Assembly (NCBI GenBank): GCA_003159055.1
Contig: PMLH01000030.1
Coordinates: 366 to 7,766, forward strand
Reading direction: 5' to 3'
DNA from: Myxococcales bacterium
GTDB taxonomy: Bacteria > Myxococcota > Polyangia > Fen-1088
Length of the DNA stretch: 7,401 bases
How positions within the stretch are numbered: position 1 is the stretch's first letter; the number at the start of each line of letters is the position of its first letter. The notes beneath the pieces are model-generated. The model was not told where the DNA came from and ran no database searches. It was given only the letters and a program-made list of their open reading frames with translations. Below are positions 123-7,401 of the stretch, one piece after another. The translations under genes and the position numbers were made by a program.

Positions 123-3100
123 TCACCTGACGTGGCGGCGCAGCGCGATCACCGTCTGGTCGTCGTCTCGCTTGGGAGACCAGGCGGCGACCCGCTCCAG
201 CGTCCGGGTGCAGATGCTTGCGACCGGGTCGCCATGGACGCCCTCCAGTAGCTCCGCCAGACGGGTGGGTCCGAACTGCTCCCTTCGATCCGCCATCGCC
301 TCCGTGATTCCGTCGGTGTAGAGCAACACGACGTCCGATTCCTCAAGGCGGAACTCGCGTCGCGGGACCTTGCCCTCCGCGTCCTCGACCATGCCGACCC
401 ACGTTCCAGCCGCATCGATCCACTCGCACCGCCCCGTCCCCGCGCGCCAGACGAGGATGTCCTCGTGGCCACCGGCCACCACGAAGCGCCCGTCCGGGAA
501 GAATCGGAACAGCGACAGCGTCGCGAAGTCGCTGCGCCCCAGCCGCACGTGGATGTTCTCGTACAGCATCCGGTTGAGGAGCGCGACCAGCCGCGAGGGA
601 TCGTCCTCGCGGTCGCCGTGCATCAGCGTGGACAGCCCGCTCTGGAGCATCAACATGATGAGGCCCGCGTTGAGGCCGTGGCCGGACACGTCGCCAATCC
701 CGAGCCAGCAGCCGCCGTCCGCCGTCCGCTGCAGATCGTAGTAGTCGCCGCCGACCTCGCTGGCGGTGACCATCGCGGCCGCGATCTCGAAGCCTGGCAC
801 GTCTAGCTGGCGCGGAAGGATCGAGGTCTGGATCTGCTTTGCGATCGCCATCTCGCTCTCGTAGTAGGCGACGGCCGTCTTGCGCTCAGCCTCGATCAGC
901 TGGGACTGGTTCTTCTTCAGCAGGCGCAAGCTGGCCTCGAGCTCGCGCGTGCGGTCCTCCACGCGACGCTCCAGGTCCTCGTACAGCATCGCGTTCTCCA
1001 GCGAGACCGCCGCCTGCGACGACAGCACCTCGAGCAGCTCGACGCGATCGGCGCTGAACGCGGCGGTCGCCAGGTTGTTCTCGAGGTAGAGCAGGCCCAC
1101 CAGGTTCCCCTGGCGGACGAGCGGCAGGCACAGCAGCGAGCGGACTCGGCCGGCGCCGAAGTGAGGATCGGCCGAGAAGATGTTCTGATGATCGGCGTCG
1201 GTGAGGAGGACCTTTTCCTTGGTGCGCTCGGCGTAGGCGATCAACGAACGCGGCAGCGACGGGCGGCCGTCGCTGCCCGCGTCCGCGAGGAGAAAGCGCT
1301 CGAAGGCGCCGGTCTCCTGCGGGCCCGCCACACCCTCGACCCACAGCTCGCCGGCCTTGAGCAGAATCAGGTAACCGCGCTCGGCGCCCGCCTGCTCGAT
1401 CACGATGCGCAACAGGCTCTGGATCAGCTTCGACAGCACCATCTCGGTGGAGACGGCCTGCGAGGCCCTGACGAAGCTGAGGGCGTCGAGCTGCTCGGAG
1501 CGCACCTCCGCCGTCCGCGCGCCGTCGACGGGGATGTCGGCGGTGAGCTCCTGCACCTTGGCGGTGGCGCCGCAGCGCTGGTAGGCGGCACGCGCCTCGC
1601 GTCGATAGAGAATGGCGACCTTCGGCCAACCTTGTCGCGCGGCGAACTTGGCGCACAGCTCGTTGGCCAGGCCCTGGTGGAGGATCGCCCGGTTCTCTTG
1701 CGCCAGCGAGGCGGCCCGATCGTAAAGGGCGATAGTTCGGCGTCCGTCGCCGCCGATGCCCGTCAGCTCGGCCTCGATCAGCGCGTGCCAGTGTCCGAAC
1801 GTGTCCGGCGACGACATCGCCCAGCCGCGCAACATCGCCTCGTCACGCCCGAGCGCCTCCAGCAGCGACGCACGCTCGCCCTCGGACAGGCCGCCGCCCG
1901 CCGAGTCCTCGGCCGCGAGGCGCAGGCGGCCGGCGCGCGCCAGCGCCGTGTGGAACGCGATCTCGGGCGTCGTCAGCTCGGGGGGCACCGAAGGCGAGGC
2001 CTTCTCGAGATCGCCCAGCGCGCCCGCATGGTCGCCCGCGAAGTAGCGCGCGATCCCCGAGAACAGGAAGTAGGTCGAGATGAGAAAGCGATTGCCGCTG
2101 TCGACGACGGTCCGTTCGAACTCGCCGAGATCGAAGCCTTCGCTTTCGAGGCTCCCGCGACGCACGGTCTTGCCCTGAAAGCTAGCGACGAGCTGGGCGA
2201 CCATGGTCACCGCCCGGCGGTTCACCACGTTGCCAGTCCGCTCGAGCGTCTCGGCCTTGCTGGCGAGCTCGGCGGTGACCTCGTCGAGGTCATCGCCGAT
2301 GTAGAGGCGGTAGAGGCCGAGGAAGGTGATGCAGTACGCGGCGTGCAGATAGTCGCCGGAGTCGAGGCCGCGCCTGAGCCCCGCAGCAAACAGATCGAGG
2401 CTCTCGCGCAGGGGCTTGCGCCAGAACGAGACGAAGGCTCCGAACACGAAGTGGTTGGCGCAGTCCACCGCCTGGTAGTCCATGCGCTGGTTGAGGCGCA
2501 TGCCCACCTCGGCGACCCGGTACGCGGTGTCGAGATCGCCGCCGCTCGCCAGCACCATGCTGTAGCAAAGGTAGAAATACGACGACACCCGCGAGTTGCC
2601 GTGGCGAAGCGCCACGTTGACGGCCTTGCCCACGGTCAGAACGAACAGGGGGGTATTCGACTGCGATGCCGCGGGGATGATGCCGTAAAGGACGTCGAGC
2701 AGCTCGACCGCCTCGGGATCGGTCGCCACCGGCAGGTCGAGCAGCGACTCGACGCTGCGGCCGCCGAGCGCCGCGCCGACCGCGCCCAGCTCGGCGCCGA
2801 TGGCCGGTCCCAGCTCGCCGCTCGGGGGCGGAAACTCGAGGCCGAGGCGCGCCGCCGTCTCGAGGCCGCTGAGAATGGCCTCCTCCATGCGATCGGTGTG
2901 CGACAGGATCAGCGTGCGCAGCTTCAGCGCCGCCACGGCGTCGAGCGTGGTGCGCGCACGCCGCACCACCGTCTCAAGCAGCCGGAACGCGTCCGCGACG
3001 TTGTTGGCGGCAAACTCGCACTCGGCGCGCGCGAGACACGCCTTGTAGGCCAGGTCGTAGTCCGTTTCCCACGCGCCGTCGCCCAGTAGCTCCTCGACGG

Positions 3101-5453
3101 TGCCGAGGAACTTCGCCGCCATGCCGTAGGCGATCGCGTCCCGCGCCTTGCGGCCGGCCGCCAAGTTCATGTGCGCGAGCCGCCGCCGCTCGCCCGCATC
3201 GGCGATCAGCGCGGCGCCAATGTTCATGTGGTTGACCACGTCGAACAGCCGCTCGTCACCGCCGCCCGCCGCCGCCATCATGAGCCGACCGATGCGCAGG
3301 TGGACCGCTTGCTTGTCGGCGTCGTCGATCAGCGCATACGCGGCCTGTTGGACGCGATCGTGAAGAAAGCGGTAGGCGGGATTCATGTCCTCGCCGTCGC
3401 CGCCGGTGAAGGCCTCGCCGTTGCCGTGCAGGTAGCCCTGGTTGGCGTCGAGCGGGATCACGAGGCCCTCGCGCAGCGCCTCCCACAGCGCCACCGCCAC
3501 CTCGGCCGGCGGCTGCTCGGAGGTCACCGCCAGCGTCCGCCGGTCGAACTGGTCGCCGATACAGGCGGCGAGCGACAGCGCGCGCTGGGAGGCGGGGGCG
3601 AGCCGCCGCAGCTTGGCGATCATGAAGTCGATGACGTTGTCCGTCGCCTTCGCCCCCTCGATGCGGCCGAGATCCCAGGCCCACCGTCGCTCGGCGACGT
3701 CCCAGGCGAGCAGACCCTGCTTGTGCAAATGGGTGACGAACTGGTTGAGGAAGAAAGGGTTCCCATGGGTCTTGCCCAGTACCAGCTCGGCGAGCGACGG
3801 CACGTCGGGATCGGCCCGGTCGAGCCCCAGCGTGTCGGCCAGCAGCTGGCACACGTCGGGCAGGCCGAGCGGCGCCAGCTTGATCTCGTGCGCGGTGACG
3901 CCCGCCTTGGCGAGCTCGGCGAGGGCGAGCATCAGCGGGTGAACCGGGTCGACCTCGTTCTCCCGGAAAGCGCCGATCACCAGCAGGTGACCGCGGCGGG
4001 GGCTGGTGAGCAGGAGGTTGATGAGCCGCAGCGACGCGGGATCGGCCCATTGCAGGTCGTCGAGGAAGAACGCCAGCGGATGCTCGGCCGTGGTGAACAC
4101 CTGCAAGAAGCTCTGGAACGCCTGCTCGAAGCGGCGCTGGGTCTCGCTCGATCCCAGCGCCTGAACCTTCGGTTGCGGCCCGATCACGAACTGCAGCTCG
4201 GGGACGAGATCGATGAGCACCTGGGCGTTCGGCCCCACCGCGTTCAGGATCTTCTGGCGCCAGTGCGCGAGCGACTCGGCCGATTCGCCGAGGATCGAGC
4301 GCAGCAGCTGCCCGCACGCGCGAGTGATCGGCAGGTAAGGCACGCGGCGGCCCAGCTGATCGAACTTGCCCGCGATGAAGCGCCCGTTCTGCACGATCTG
4401 ACGCTGGATCTCGTTCACCAGCGCCGACTTGCCGATCCCCGAATAGCCCGAGATCAGCAGCAGCTCGGCCGCTCCACTCCGCGCCCGTTCGAAGGTCGCG
4501 AGCAGGGCCGCCGACTCCACCTCGCGGCCGTATAGCTTCTGGGGAATGCGCAGCTCGCCGGAGAAATCGTGGCTGCCGAGCAGGAAAGGCCCGACGTCGC
4601 CGCCTGGCCCCAGCCGCGCCAGGCAACGCTCGAGGTCGGCCTTGAGCCCGCCTGCGTCTTGATAGCGATCCTCGGCGTTCTTTGCCAGCAGCTTCATCAC
4701 GATCGCGGACACCACCGACGGGATCCCCGAGACCAGGGCGTCGGGCGCGATGGGCGCGCGGGCGATGTGGCTATGCACCAGCTCGAGGGGATCACTGGCG
4801 CGAAACGGCAGAGTGCCCGTCAGCAGCTCGTAGAACGTCGCCCCCAGCGAGTAGAGATCGGTGCGGCGATCGAGCACCCGGTTCATGCGGCCGGTCTGCT
4901 CGGGCGACATGTAGGCGAGCGTGCCTTCCAGTCGGCTGACGTTGGTGGCGCGGCGATCCTCGAGGGACAGGCGCGTCGCCACCGCGAAGTCGATCAAGGT
5001 GACGTCGCCGGGCTTGCCTCCACTGCGGAGGAAGTTGTGCGGCTTGATGTCCTTGTGAATGACCTGGCGGCGGTGGATCGCCTCCACCACGCGCGCCATC
5101 GAGATCGCGACCTCGAGGAAGCTGCGCAGGTCCATCGGTTGCGCGCCGGCGCCGAGATCCAGCGAGCTGCCGCCCACGTCCTCGAGGACGAGCGCCATGC
5201 TGTCGCCGATCCTCTCGACGCCGAGTGGCTTGACCGCGCCCGTGCCAGTGAGCGATTGCAGGATCGAATATTCGTGGCGGAGGCGCGCGATCTGGGCGGC
5301 GCTCGGGTAATCGTCGGTCGGGATGCGCAACAGCACCGCCGCCTGGTCGGCATTCCGGCGCCCTCGGTAGAGAGTGGCCTGTGACAGGTCACGGAGCTTG
5401 GTCGTGGGCGTGTAAGCGTCGGTCACGGTTGCCATCGACATCCACAACGTCAT
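123..5453 (-). CDS. Giant multidomain signalling protein: kinase-like, AAA ATPase, TPR-like, GAF and SpoIIE/PP2C phosphatase
   Basis: Predicted cytoplasmic signal integrator of up to 1776 residues; no signal peptide or membrane helix is seen. Residues about 20-277 are a Ser/Thr-kinase fold (HKDIKPHN at 133-140, SPE at 183-185, D199, R263). Residues about 305-510 are an AAA_16-type ATPase with Walker A GYSGIGKS (336-343) and Walker B LAFFLDD (460-466), followed by a winged-helix-like segment to about 710. Residues about 710-1310 are helical and TPR-like. GAF spans about 1335-1490 and a coiled coil about 1490-1540. A SpoIIE/RsbU phosphatase spans about 1533-1771 and keeps EVGGDYYD (1566-1573), GDVSGHG (1587-1593), YTDGITEA (1712-1719) and DDDQT (1763-1767), so it looks active. 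The front end matches the HstK-like kinase-ATPase-GAF architecture, which usually ends in a histidine kinase; here a phosphatase replaces it. Starts at 5453, 5441 and 5435 are all possible, none with a strong ribosome site. The stop is TGA at 125-123. The gene is divergent from the GHKL/STAS pair. Confidence 0.95.
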   Translation of the reverse strand: MTLWMSMATVTDAYTPTTKLRDLSQATLYRGRRNADQAAVLLRIPTDDYPSAAQIARLRHEYSILQSLTGTGAVKPLGVERIGDSMALVLEDVGGSSLDLGAGAQPMDLRSFLEVAISMARVVEAIHRRQVIHKDIKPHNFLRSGGKPGDVTLIDFAVATRLSLEDRRATNVSRLEGTLAYMSPEQTGRMNRVLDRRTDLYSLGATFYELLTGTLPFRASDPLELVHSHIARAPIAPDALVSGIPSVVSAIVMKLLAKNAEDRYQDAGGLKADLERCLARLGPGGDVGPFLLGSHDFSGELRIPQKLYGREVESAALLATFERARSGAAELLLISGYSGIGKSALVNEIQRQIVQNGRFIAGKFDQLGRRVPYLPITRACGQLLRSILGESAESLAHWRQKILNAVGPNAQVLIDLVPELQFVIGPQPKVQALGSSETQRRFEQAFQSFLQVFTTAEHPLAFFLDDLQWADPASLRLINLLLTSPRRGHLLVIGAFRENEVDPVHPLMLALAELAKAGVTAHEIKLAPLGLPDVCQLLADTLGLDRADPDVPSLAELVLGKTHGNPFFLNQFVTHLHKQGLLAWDVAERRWAWDLGRIEGAKATDNVIDFMIAKLRRLAPASQRALSLAACIGDQFDRRTLAVTSEQPPAEVAVALWEALREGLVIPLDANQGYLHGNGEAFTGGDGEDMNPAYRFLHDRVQQAAYALIDDADKQAVHLRIGRLMMAAAGGGDERLFDVVNHMNIGAALIADAGERRRLAHMNLAAGRKARDAIAYGMAAKFLGTVEELLGDGAWETDYDLAYKACLARAECEFAANNVADAFRLLETVVRRARTTLDAVAALKLRTLILSHTDRMEEAILSGLETAARLGLEFPPPSGELGPAIGAELGAVGAALGGRSVESLLDLPVATDPEAVELLDVLYGIIPAASQSNTPLFVLTVGKAVNVALRHGNSRVSSYFYLCYSMVLASGGDLDTAYRVAEVGMRLNQRMDYQAVDCANHFVFGAFVSFWRKPLRESLDLFAAGLRRGLDSGDYLHAAYCITFLGLYRLYIGDDLDEVTAELASKAETLERTGNVVNRRAVTMVAQLVASFQGKTVRRGSLESEGFDLGEFERTVVDSGNRFLISTYFLFSGIARYFAGDHAGALGDLEKASPSVPPELTTPEIAFHTALARAGRLRLAAEDSAGGGLSEGERASLLEALGRDEAMLRGWAMSSPDTFGHWHALIEAELTGIGGDGRRTIALYDRAASLAQENRAILHQGLANELCAKFAARQGWPKVAILYRREARAAYQRCGATAKVQELTADIPVDGARTAEVRSEQLDALSFVRASQAVSTEMVLSKLIQSLLRIVIEQAGAERGYLILLKAGELWVEGVAGPQETGAFERFLLADAGSDGRPSLPRSLIAYAERTKEKVLLTDADHQNIFSADPHFGAGRVRSLLCLPLVRQGNLVGLLYLENNLATAAFSADRVELLEVLSSQAAVSLENAMLYEDLERRVEDRTRELEASLRLLKKNQSQLIEAERKTAVAYYESEMAIAKQIQTSILPRQLDVPGFEIAAAMVTASEVGGDYYDLQRTADGGCWLGIGDVSGHGLNAGLIMLMLQSGLSTLMHGDREDDPSRLVALLNRMLYENIHVRLGRSDFATLSLFRFFPDGRFVVAGGHEDILVWRAGTGRCEWIDAAGTWVGMVEDAEGKVPRREFRLEESDVVLLYTDGITEAMADRREQFGPTRLAELLEGVHGDPVASICTRTLERVAAWSPKRDDDQTVIALRRHVR

Positions 5454-5649
5454 TCACGCCCATTACTTGAGCCTGGAAGCGCGCGCCAGGGCGCCGCCAC
5501 GCCCTGCGGCCTGAAGTTTCGTCACCAGTGGTGCCATTTTGCGCCCCTGGTGCGCGTCTTGGTACCTGCTCGGGGATTGCGCTCAAGAACTTGTCCGAGT
5601 TGACTATACTTCTTCACTGGCTCTGCCGATGTCTGCTTTGCGAGATCCC
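5454..5649. promoter_or_regulatory. Divergent intergenic control region
   Basis: This 196-bp gap separates the start of the giant minus-strand gene from the plus-strand GHKL/STAS operon, so both promoters should lie here. An open frame runs through its right part toward the GHKL gene, but it lacks a ribosome site and looks unlike the family N-terminus. Visible symmetric elements are the palindrome CACCAGTGGTG (5523-5533), a CACCAG/CTGGTG inverted pair (5523-5528 and 5547-5552), and a perfect 7-bp inverted repeat CAGGGCG/CGCCCTG (5487-5493 and 5500-5506). The last would form a GC-rich hairpin in the leader of the giant gene. Operator function is inference; short inverted repeats are common by chance at this GC content. 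Confidence 0.4.
5605..5610 (+). promoter_or_regulatory. Candidate -10 box of the GHKL/STAS operon
   Basis: TATACT matches the sigma-70 consensus TATAAT at five of six bases and lies in a locally AT-rich patch of otherwise GC-rich DNA. Transcription would begin near 5617, leaving a leader of roughly 30-50 nt before the likely GHKL starts. No good -35 hexamer lies 16-18 bp upstream (positions 5582-5587 read CTCAAG), so the site is weak, activator-dependent or false. Confidence 0.3.
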
Positions 5650-6141
5650 ATGCCAGAAGGCCCTACCTTGAGCTTTGGACTCCAGATCCAGCCCCAGCCA
5701 CGCATGGTGTCGATCGTGCGCCGATTCGTCGAGGAAAGCTTCGAGAAGTTGGTTGGAGATTCGGAGGCCGTGTTCCGCGTCTCCCTAGCAGTGCACGAGC
5801 TGCTTGAGAATGCGGCGAAATATGCCGTCGGCGACAAGACCGGGATAGCCGTGCATTTCGAGTCAAACGGTCGCGCGGCGAGAATCAAGCTAACCAACCA
5901 GTCCACGCCCGAGCACATCGCCCGCCTGCGCGAATCCATCCAGGAAATTCAGTCCAGCCGGGAGCCGTTCGCACTCTTCCAGTCGCTGATGCGCAGAACA
6001 GCTGGCGTCCAAGAGGAGTCCGGCCTGGGCCTGGCGCGCATTCGCGCCGAGGGTGAGCTCGATCTCTCTCTTGAAATCGATGGATTGATGGTCACCATCA
6101 CGGCGAGCAGCGCGCCGATGTGGGTGCACGCGCATGGATAG
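5650..6141 (+). CDS. GHKL (HATPase_c) ATP-binding protein, RsbW/SiaB-like
   Basis: Likely a small soluble serine kinase or anti-sigma-like switch protein acting on the STAS protein encoded next to it. From this start it has 163 residues. The N box is clear, HELLENAAKYA at about 49-59 with E50 and N54, and a glycine-rich ATP-lid motif ESGLGLA lies at about 123-129. The usual DxGxG motif between them is absent; its place is taken by LTNQSTPEHI (about 81-90), which recalls SiaB-type kinases more than classic RsbW. The start is uncertain. ATG 5629 has no ribosome site, ATG 5650 has a weak one (GCGAG), and TTG 5668 is preceded by AGAAGG (5655-5660) at a 7-nt spacing and would give 157 residues. 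The stop codon overlaps the next gene, which implies translational coupling. The fold is well supported; kinase activity and partner are inferred. Confidence 0.85.
   Translation: MPEGPTLSFGLQIQPQPRMVSIVRRFVEESFEKLVGDSEAVFRVSLAVHELLENAAKYAVGDKTGIAVHFESNGRAARIKLTNQSTPEHIARLRESIQEIQSSREPFALFQSLMRRTAGVQEESGLGLARIRAEGELDLSLEIDGLMVTITASSAPMWVHAHG
5655..5660 (+). promoter_or_regulatory. Strong ribosome-binding site AGAAGG pointing to a TTG start
   Basis: AGAAGG lies 7 nt before an in-frame TTG at 5668 and is the best Shine-Dalgarno match in front of the GHKL gene. It lies inside the reading frame if ATG 5650 is used. If it is the real site, the protein begins MSFGLQIQP and is six residues shorter than annotated here. 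Confidence 0.45.
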
Positions 6142-6511
6142 CTGGGCGGAGATCGTGAAGGGGGAGGACTTCGCCGCACACGCCAGTGCCAGCGAGCAAG
6201 GGATCCTGGTCTGTCTTAGCGGTACGGCCGATCTCACGGTCAAGAGCCACCTTGATACCTTCCTGCGCGAGGTGCACACGGAGGCCCAGCGCCGCCTGGC
6301 CCAAGTGGTCACCGTGGATCTACGCAAGATGGATTTCATGAACTCGTCGTGCCTGAGGAGCTTCGTATGGTGGATCAGCACCGTGCAGGAACAACCTGGC
6401 GAGGCAAAATACCGCATCATCTTTTTGCACAACCCATCCCTGCGCTGGCAGCTGCGCAGCCTGAATTCCCTCGCCAGCATTGCCAGCAACATGATCACCA
6501 TTCGGGCGTAG
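6134..6511 (+). CDS. STAS-domain protein, anti-sigma-factor antagonist-like (RsbV/SiaC role)
   Basis: A 125-residue soluble protein filling a single STAS fold. Residues 21-30 (EQGILVCLSG) fit the first strands. Residues 58-80 hold the diagnostic strand, loop and helix: VVTVDLRKMDF followed by MNSSCLRSFVWW. S71 aligns with the serine phosphorylated in SpoIIAA and RsbV, where the usual motif is DSSGLG; here it reads NSSCLR, with Asn replacing the Asp and Cys replacing the Gly. N-[ST]-S is closer to the SiaC (DUF1987) phospho-site region. The start ATG overlaps the last 8 bp of the GHKL gene, so the two are co-translated and probably bind each other. The presumed cycle is phosphorylation by the GHKL protein and dephosphorylation by the PP2C domain encoded divergently. 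The downstream target is not visible. The fold is fairly sure; the role is inferred from motif and context. Confidence 0.85.
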   Translation: MDSWAEIVKGEDFAAHASASEQGILVCLSGTADLTVKSHLDTFLREVHTEAQRRLAQVVTVDLRKMDFMNSSCLRSFVWWISTVQEQPGEAKYRIIFLHNPSLRWQLRSLNSLASIASNMITIRA

Positions 6512-6675
6512 ACATGCAGCCCGCCGTCGTGCTCTTGGTCAGGGGAAATGCCTCCAGGATAAGAGCGGTCTCCTATTGCGACATGCACGGCTTCTGGCAA
6601 GCCGAAGCTCCGCTGTAGTCCGGGTGAAGCGGTCCACCGAATTTCGCCACGTCCTTTTCTGCGGTGGCCCGCCAG

Positions 6676-6698
6676 CATGGCACGTCAATCCTGCCATG
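6676..6698. repeat. Perfect 7-bp inverted repeat with 9-nt spacer
   Basis: CATGGCA (6676-6682) and TGCCATG (6692-6698) are exact reverse complements separated by nine bases. The repeat lies about 165 bp after the STAS stop. There is no T-run on either side, so it is not a standard intrinsic terminator. It could be a protein-binding site, an RNA hairpin or chance. Confidence 0.45.
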
Positions 6699-6711
6699 AG
6701 ATCACGGCGTT

Positions 6712-6738
6712 GCAGCTCCGCTTCCGTGCGGCTGCTTT
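6712..6738 (+). terminator. Weak hairpin plus TTT, possible terminator of the GHKL/STAS operon
   Basis: GCAGC-tc-CGC (6712-6721) pairs with GCGGCTGC (6728-6735) as an 8-bp stem with a two-base bulge and a six-base loop, and is followed by TTT (6736-6738). The T-tract is short and the site lies 200 bp beyond the STAS stop, so this is only a suggestion. Confidence 0.2.
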
Positions 6739-6775
6739 AGCCGACCGGGTCGCGTGCTTCCACGCCCTCGCCCCG

Positions 6776-7054
6776 CTATCCTTCGAAAAGAGCTGCCCCA
6801 CGCTCTGCTAGCCCATAGTCATCTTGAATAGGTATTTTGGGCTTGGTGTCCAGAAACAGATCATCGGCAGCGTAGGCCTTGGCATCGAGGCCAACTGCCG
6901 CCAGCGACTGCGTGGCGTCCGCAAGTCGCCGCTCGTTGCGAGCCACCGCGGCCACACGGTAGCCTTCTCGGCCAAATCGACGGGCTACTGCTTCGGAAAT
7001 CCCGACTCCGTGTGGATCTGCGGAATGGGAAGCCTGGCCTCGACGGCGAGGCAT
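6776..7054 (-). pseudogene. Short-chain dehydrogenase/reductase N-terminal remnant
   Basis: The part at about 7009-6857 reads GVGISEAVARRFGREGYRVA, then AVARNERRLADATQSLAAVG and LDAKAYAADDL. This is typical SDR sequence from the glycine-rich turn through helix A, strand 2 (VAAVARN), helix B and the AxD end of strand 3. The first beta strand and the start of the TGxxxGxG motif are missing, replaced by an unrelated GQASHSADPH stretch. The catalytic Ser-Tyr-Lys region is absent: after AADDL the frame continues for 26 unlike residues (FLDTKPKIPIQDDYGL and on) to a stop at 6776. An ATG at 7054 could give 92 residues, but that protein would lack an active site. It lies just behind the stop of the unrecognised gene at 7072. 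Most likely a deletion scar of a former NAD(P)-dependent oxidoreductase gene. Confidence 0.6.
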
Positions 7055-7071
7055 TCGACCCGCTTGGTGCA

Positions 7072-7401
7072 CTACGGACAAGCCGGAATCGGGGTCACCC
7101 CGGCGAGATTGCTGATGTTGCTTTGCAGTCCGCTTGGCGCTGTGCCGGTGATGTTGGCCGCGATCACGCCCTCCGCGACGCGCGCATTGATGTCGGAAAG
7201 GCTGGCCGTGGACCAACTGTCGCCCGCGGCGGAAGCGCCGGCGCTGGTGTCGACCAAGATGGTCTTTCCCGTGAGGCTATGAAGATAGGCGTAGGTCGCG
7301 GTGGCCGCGTTGTACGTGCTGCTCGTGGTGCCGGATTCGAGGAAGCCCTTGTTGTTGCCGACGCCCGTCGTCCAAACCATGTCGTAGTTCACGTTCTTCA
7401 T
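7072..7401 (-). CDS. C-terminal part of an unrecognised, probably exported protein (runs off window)
   Basis: An open frame of 109 codons ends at TAG 7074-7072. Its first visible codon is ATG at the very last base of the window, so the true start may lie outside and I treat it as partial. The sequence is rich in Ser, Thr, Ala, Gly and Asn and poor in charge (for example GFLESGTTSSTYNAATATYA and LVDTSAGASAAGDSWSTASL), with a single Cys three residues from the end (IPACP). Such composition is common in secreted or surface proteins and hydrolases, but I do not recognise a family or a catalytic motif. There is no signal peptide in the visible part. A 6-bp hairpin, GCCTCG/CGAGGC (7037-7042 and 7047-7052), lies 20 nt after the stop without a T-tract. 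The coding call rests on open length and non-random composition. Confidence 0.6.
   Translation of the reverse strand: MKNVNYDMVWTTGVGNNKGFLESGTTSSTYNAATATYAYLHSLTGKTILVDTSAGASAAGDSWSTASLSDINARVAEGVIAANITGTAPSGLQSNISNLAGVTPIPACP

Follow-up and report, generated by a model that had tools for sequence, protein, structure and literature searches.

Partner switches have been described in several bacteria, including RsbU/RsbW/RsbV and SpoIIE/SpoIIAB/SpoIIAA of Bacillus; articles are identified here by PubMed Central (PMC) number and are cited from excerpts of their text. In Pseudomonas aeruginosa, SiaA and SiaB control the phosphorylation of SiaC at T68 in a partner switch (PMC7647112), and HmpU/HmpW/HmpV of Nostoc punctiforme has been suggested to be another, with an unknown final target (PMC8256260). 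In cyanobacteria, the GHKL gene slr1658 adjoins the STAS gene slr1659 (NCBIfam families NF047703 and NF047705), and disruption of slr1658 in Synechocystis led to poorer recovery from iron limitation and higher pgr5 expression (PMC7555055, citing Zer et al. 2018). Sorangium cellulosum has been reported to encode 71 STAS-type proteins and 13 SpoIIE-like phosphatases, the latter mostly in one clade with periplasmic-binding domains (PMC2887360). Here, we analyze a 7,401-nucleotide stretch of a Myxococcales genome (contig PMLH01000030.1, positions 366 to 7,766; hereafter the window) in which the gene for a giant sensor-phosphatase is divergent from a GHKL gene and a STAS gene. This locus is best read as a partner switch that has a distant relationship to slr1658/slr1659 and is equipped with a STAND/HstK-type sensor-phosphatase.

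Residues and folds of the three proteins

The window contains two divergent transcription units. The giant is encoded leftwards (positions 123–5453, minus strand; 1776 residues, without an internal stop), and the GHKL and STAS genes run rightwards. The GHKL gene (5629–6141, plus strand) encodes a putative switch kinase of 170 residues from the ATG at 5629 to the TAG at 6139–6141. The ATG of the STAS gene (6134–6511, plus strand; 125 residues) lies inside its 3′ end, so that the two genes overlap by 8 nt. A check of open reading frames (ORFs) and translations confirmed the coordinates that a preliminary description had given for all three genes, as well as its picture of a giant divergent from a coupled pair, and database searches found homologues of all three proteins. 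The GHKL gene has an alternative start at 5650, where most aligned homologues begin. The start of the giant may also sit a few codons later, because its database copy (P0210) has only 1770 residues.

The giant ends in a SpoIIE/PP2C-type phosphatase domain (residues 1579–1774, positions 132–719 on the minus strand; Pfam SpoIIE, 1.5e-37), which extends over about residues 1561–1774 by comparison with homologues. Asp1570, Asp1588, Asp1714, and Asp1765 are all present, in keeping with the earlier claim of an apparently intact SpoIIE/RsbU phosphatase. Among 131 aligned proteins, 130 keep all four; P0247, which does not, is listed without a SpoIIE domain. By sequence, the domain resembles the solved chains 3ke6 (Rv1364c, 6.8e-6) and 6k4e (1.6e-4).

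Pfam nearly misses both small proteins, and we therefore added NCBIfam, a profile search of solved structures, and a fold search, rejecting Pfam as the sole test. The STAS protein has no Pfam STAS match at E ≤ 1 and reaches the slr1659 superfamily (NF047705) at 1.9e-7 and 31.4 bits, below the cut-off of 100, and TIGR00377 at 4.3e-4, also below its cut-off. Its profile matches SpoIIAA chains at 2e-5, and its AlphaFold model (predicted local distance difference test score, pLDDT, of 89) resembles SpoIIAA and RsbV at 1e-5, with a weaker resemblance to SiaC at 5e-3. In alignment, Ser71 (positions 6344–6346) corresponds to the serine that is phosphorylated in SpoIIAA; it is invariant in three alignments of STAS sequences (34/34, 24/24, and 11/11). 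The aligned SpoIIAA entry 1tid, which we take to be the S58A mutant, has Ala at this position. A search of a plasmid collection with the STAS protein gave no match.

For the GHKL protein, Pfam HATPase_c_2 stops at 27.0 bits, just under its cut-off of 27.4, and the slr1658 superfamily (NF047703) scores 51.0 bits, short of its curated cut-off of 100. The AlphaFold model (pLDDT 86) matches SpoIIAB (1til, 2.6e-7), RsbW, and SiaB, with SiaB, from the SiaB–SiaC complex (6kko), giving the top query template modeling (TM) score among the 50 matches listed (0.62–0.64). The N-box residues Glu57 (5797–5799) and Asn61 (5809–5811) and a GLGL G2 motif are present. Both N-box residues are invariant in 38/38 and 25/25 aligned GHKL sequences, as is Asn90 of a TN motif, which is also kept in 11/11 sequences including slr1658-type proteins. 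The modeled fold is thus a match to the SpoIIAB/RsbW/SiaB type with the N-box Glu and Asn. For a cyanobacterial GHKL protein, no match was found among solved structures.

We consider it likely that the three genes form a partner switch, with the GHKL protein as kinase, the STAS protein as target, and the SpoIIE domain of the giant as a phosphatase gated by its own sensor front. The GHKL protein (5629–6141) would phosphorylate the STAS protein (6134–6511) at Ser71, which is thereby named as a candidate substrate residue, and the C-terminal SpoIIE domain would take this phosphate off. The front of the giant, composed of a kinase-like domain, a STAND-type ATPase, an unnamed region, and a GAF domain, would sense a cytosolic cue and gate the phosphatase. 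Once dephosphorylated, the STAS protein would either sequester the GHKL protein or bind a target encoded outside the window. Phosphotransfer and its direction, the gating, the signal, and the output are all parts of the scheme that we infer.

Two other parts of the window were inspected. The 175 bp divergent intergenic region (5454–5628) yielded no sigma-70-like promoter and no terminator in a consensus scan. Downstream of the STAS gene (6512–7401), two mutually overlapping ORFs on the minus strand (6776–7216 and 7072–7401) were scanned with Pfam; one resembles a short-chain dehydrogenase below the cut-off, and the other has no match.

Linkage across genomes

GHKL loci were collected in three ways. 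The GHKL alignment, run as a scan against a genome collection, retrieved 19 loci. In the phylum of genome G001, a GHKL search covered 377 genomes with nine candidates scored in each and found 48 places, spread over 34 genomes, of which 40 were fetched and two dropped as duplicates. This phylum is called Myxococcota-type hereafter, because two genomes from the order of G001 correspond to loci with Myxococcales titles. Finally, 18 genomes of the order were searched and contributed 12 places, six of them already in the set and six added. The relatives found in the scan come from assemblies named Deltaproteobacteria, Myxococcales, Polyangiaceae, Sorangium, Nannocystis, and Proteobacteria, and once Cyanobacteria (L016, whose phylum is called cyanobacterial below).

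Counting the best GHKL gene at each of the resulting 63 loci, we found a STAS gene within 100 bp in 56 (49/53 where at least 2.5 kb was available on both sides). The seven others are L008 and L086, which meet contig ends, L019, where the distance is 270 bp, L068, L091, L147, and L148. A SpoIIE ORF lies within 1 kb of the GHKL gene in 41/63 loci, or 37/53 of those with such flanks, and within 5.1 kb in 46/63 (42/53). The chance expectation for the 1 kb distance is about 0.35% of loci, a figure based on 38 SpoIIE matches in 51.5 Mb from seven genomes and on SpoIIE ORFs assumed to be about 2.2 kb long. The loci are related, and an independence-based (binomial) significance would therefore be overstated; the excess over chance is still plain. 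That GHKL–STAS pairs adjoin SpoIIE phosphatases far above chance is well supported, and with the recurrence of the giant near such pairs it upholds the module of three activities put forward in the preliminary description.

The module is kept in kind across genomes, with varying phosphatase front ends. LacI-type periplasmic-binding domains occur in L004, L015, and both phosphatases of L009, dCache domains (below the cut-off) in L003 and L006, and a HAMP domain in L019, where the phosphatase is 3.9–5 kb away; L016 has no named front domain, and L005 has a full giant. In L009, an extra SpoIIE phosphatase and an extra STAS gene (L009:6068–9131) stand beside a complete module. In L003, GHKL and STAS share a single open frame (L003:3886–4692), a fusion that may be an assembly artefact because the stretch contains an ambiguous residue. 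The three proteins, their key residues, their predicted folds, and the phosphatase–GHKL–STAS linkage are all well supported.

To count giants, we took frames of more than 1500 residues with a match reaching the SpoIIE end and inspected all 10 Myxococcota-type examples, numbers that undercount giants because the phylum searches scored only three giant candidates per genome. Six of the 10 lie near a GHKL–STAS pair. The order is GHKL, STAS, giant in L005 and giant, GHKL, STAS in the same direction in L075, L076, L106, and L149. In L145, the giant is divergent from the pair, with one intervening ORF that appears by eye to be an aldehyde dehydrogenase. The cyanobacterial phylum provided 15 fetched giants from 8 of 386 genomes, and three of these have an slr1658-type gene nearby in a search with two profiles at a threshold of 1e-3, at which weak members may have gone unnoticed. 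Downstream of the giants of L121 and L122, and separated from them by one ORF, lies an slr1658/slr1659 pair; L112 has the slr1658 gene only. The pair of L106 exceeds the slr1658/slr1659 cut-offs, so that a pair of this type sometimes stands beside a giant. In a tree of 128 giants, from which L145 was left out, the window groups with the Myxococcota-type giants, among which near-pair and not-near-pair members are mixed. Two neighboring genes were also recorded: a further kinase–AAA_16 protein (1223 residues; L076:9855–13523) directly follows the giant–GHKL–STAS run of L076, and a response-regulator receiver gene (L107:11167–11628) lies just past the phosphatase domain of the giant of L107, a locus without GHKL–STAS.

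A number of findings weigh against our reading of the locus. The GHKL protein lacks the canonical G1 motif DxGxG and has TN-x(3)-PE instead, placed by the order of the sequence elements, and its profile has no significant match among solved chains (best 0.08), so that its kinase activity is not certain. For 17 of the 63 GHKL loci, some of them cut by contig ends, no SpoIIE match was found in the stretch. At three loci, a GHKL gene of the same family occurs without STAS in a different pairing, divergent from a kinase-domain protein (L147:3361–6598, L148:2768–6069, and L068 around 9660–11339), which is kinase–TPR by Pfam in L147 and L148 and was recognized in L068 by kinase profile only. The fetched stretch contains no pair for four of the 10 Myxococcota-type giants (L029, L030, L105, and L107) and no slr1658-type gene for 12 of the 15 cyanobacterial ones, several stretches stopping at contig ends (e.g., L105, L113, and L114). 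The six window ORFs scanned with Pfam include no sigma factor and no diguanylate cyclase. The hardest counter-fact comes from L001 and L002, the closest GHKL relatives in the genome scan (71 and 73% identity), where the fetched flanks of the pair contain no giant. Both genomes encode one on another contig, 53% identical over the C-terminal part. The flanks fetched for L001 have no SpoIIE match, and a PP2C-family gene (L002:8525–9673; PP2C_2, 40.3 bits) lies about 350 bp upstream of the L002 pair; its SpoIIE score of 28.6 bits is just above the cut-off of 25, and it is absent from the SpoIIE profile count. Similar ORFs occur farther from the pair in L063–L066.

These separations, and the different phosphatase that adjoins the L002 pair, would fit the view that the giant and the pair are chance neighbors, with the pair served by a different phosphatase of the same genome and the giant dephosphorylating an unrelated substrate. 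We regard this as improbable, given that 6/10 Myxococcota-type giants lie near a GHKL–STAS pair in several gene orders and that most such GHKL genes have a SpoIIE ORF within 1 kb. Adjacency across genomes, as envisaged in the preliminary description, is thus conserved for the pair and a SpoIIE phosphatase (37/53) and breaks down for the giant in the L001 and L002 genomes. It follows from these two genomes and the L002 PP2C gene that a phosphatase is a steadier neighbor of the pair than the giant is. The linkage to the giant either was lost with function kept or is partly accidental.

A special case of the partner switch would be classical sigma control, in which the GHKL protein acts as an RsbW-like anti-sigma factor and the STAS protein as its antagonist, with the sigma gene elsewhere. 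The modeled folds, which match SpoIIAB/RsbW and SpoIIAA/RsbV, are in keeping with this. Among the neighbors at 13 related loci (50 of 66 listed ORFs, best 25 of 72 families), we found no sigma-factor family and no other output partner; Pkinase was present in four ORFs, SpoIIE in two, and GGDEF in one. Together with the noncanonical G1 motif and the lack of a sigma factor among the six window ORFs, a distant one being possible, this makes sigma control unlikely.

The sensor front of the giant

Upstream of its phosphatase, the giant carries, all on the minus strand, a protein kinase domain (Pkinase; residues 28–264, positions 4662–5372; Pfam, 3.5e-26), an AAA_16/STAND-like NTPase domain (residues 306–493, positions 3975–4538; 4.7e-40), a long region without a Pfam name (about residues 520–1330, positions 1464–3896), and a GAF domain (residues 1341–1485, positions 999–1433; 3.4e-15). 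The AAA_16 domain has a Walker A motif, GYSGIGKS, and a Walker B motif, FFLDD, whose residues are nearly invariant among the aligned proteins. The preliminary description had placed a TPR-like sensory region in the giant; Pfam finds no TPR family at E ≤ 1, and the unnamed region is instead conserved in relatives.

The kinase domain retains the catalytic loop HKDIKPHN. Its β3 Lys is replaced by Arg43 (codon 5325–5327), a substitution found among 131 aligned proteins only in the giant of the window and its copy P0210, and DFG is replaced by DFA. Ala at the third position of this motif occurs in 7/131 sequences, including P0213, and P0211–P0213 retain the β3 Lys. The canonical K/D/N/D set is present in 90/131 aligned sequences, and the kinase is thus less constrained than the phosphatase. 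Judged by these residues, the kinase domain of the copy in the window is probably impaired and not an active part here.

This bears on a possible addition to the partner switch, in which the kinase of the giant phosphorylates the STAS or the GHKL protein and the giant works in both directions. The intact catalytic loop and the canonical residues of many aligned sequences point toward such a relay, but the Arg in place of the β3 Lys and the DFA motif make it highly improbable for the protein in the window. Accordingly, in the idea of a eukaryotic-type kinase wired into a STAS switch, kinase activity is doubtful and is the weakest part of that proposal.

The architecture had also been described as unfamiliar among characterized systems. 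In the open-licence PMC literature searched, we found no description or characterized member of kinase–AAA–GAF–SpoIIE proteins. In databases, however, the architecture is common: PF00069, PF13191, and PF07228 occur together in 106 of 120 homologues (the best 120 of 1843), a list biased toward this architecture by its query, the GAF–SpoIIE end. A rare architecture was therefore rejected. Through its tie to a GHKL–STAS pair, the locus in the window offers a candidate function for this large and common protein class. More tentatively, giants may be widespread cytosolic STAND-type receptors whose output is a PP2C domain resetting a STAS switch, rather than a histidine kinase, protease, or pore. 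In some lineages, including that of the window, the kinase would be decaying to a pseudokinase, perhaps one that senses a ligand or a partner, and the receptor would be exchanged with LacI-type and dCache ones on one GHKL–STAS core in Myxococcota and Cyanobacteria. We hold this broader picture to be possible, with the balance tilted somewhat against it.

Comparison with known systems

Like the window, the slr1658/slr1659 pair has a GHKL gene adjoining a STAS gene. The GHKL proteins of the two agree in their N-box and TN motif, and the STAS proteins agree in the serine; the proteins of the window stay below the cut-offs of 100, at 51.0 and 31.4 bits. When 194 genomes of the cyanobacterial phylum were searched with NF047703, 46 places were found, spread over 36 of them. 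In the 20 loci fetched, a STAS gene lies within 1 kb in all 20, and a SpoIIE ORF lies within 1 kb in seven and within 3 kb in 11. These results suggest that slr1658, a gene familiar from its mutant in iron starvation, is part of a switch under the control of a phosphatase.

SiaA/SiaB/SiaC likewise consists of a PP2C phosphatase, a kinase, and a STAS-fold target. SiaA is a membrane sensor, unlike the kinase–AAA–GAF sensor of the window, and the diguanylate cyclase adjacent to the Sia genes has no counterpart among the window ORFs scanned. At the family level, the window proteins have no match at E ≤ 1 to SiaB (NF038262 and NF038264) or SiaC (PF09345), but the predicted folds of the GHKL and STAS proteins do match SiaB and SiaC. 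RsbU/RsbW/RsbV and SpoIIE/SpoIIAB/SpoIIAA share three activities and folds with the window, and the phosphoserine of SpoIIAA has its aligned equivalent in Ser71. The window differs from RsbU/RsbW/RsbV in having no sigma factor among the ORFs scanned and a noncanonical G1 box, and RsbU has a different N-terminus from the giant. HmpU/HmpW/HmpV, as excerpted, can be likened to the window by description only, as a suggested partner switch (PMC8256260).

The HstK/cbSTKIII dual kinases of cyanobacteria combine a protein kinase and a GAF domain in one protein, as the giant does, but carry a C-terminal HisKA where the giant ends in SpoIIE (PMC2176072); neither “SpoIIE” nor “PP2C” occurs in the main text of that article. 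Fusions of PP2C-like and Ser/Thr kinase domains, with a phosphatase similar to the SpoIIE family, were reported in 2005 from Pseudomonas and Deinococcus (PMC1262709). In these, the phosphatase precedes the kinase, the opposite of the giant, and the excerpted text mentions no AAA, GAF, or GHKL–STAS pair.

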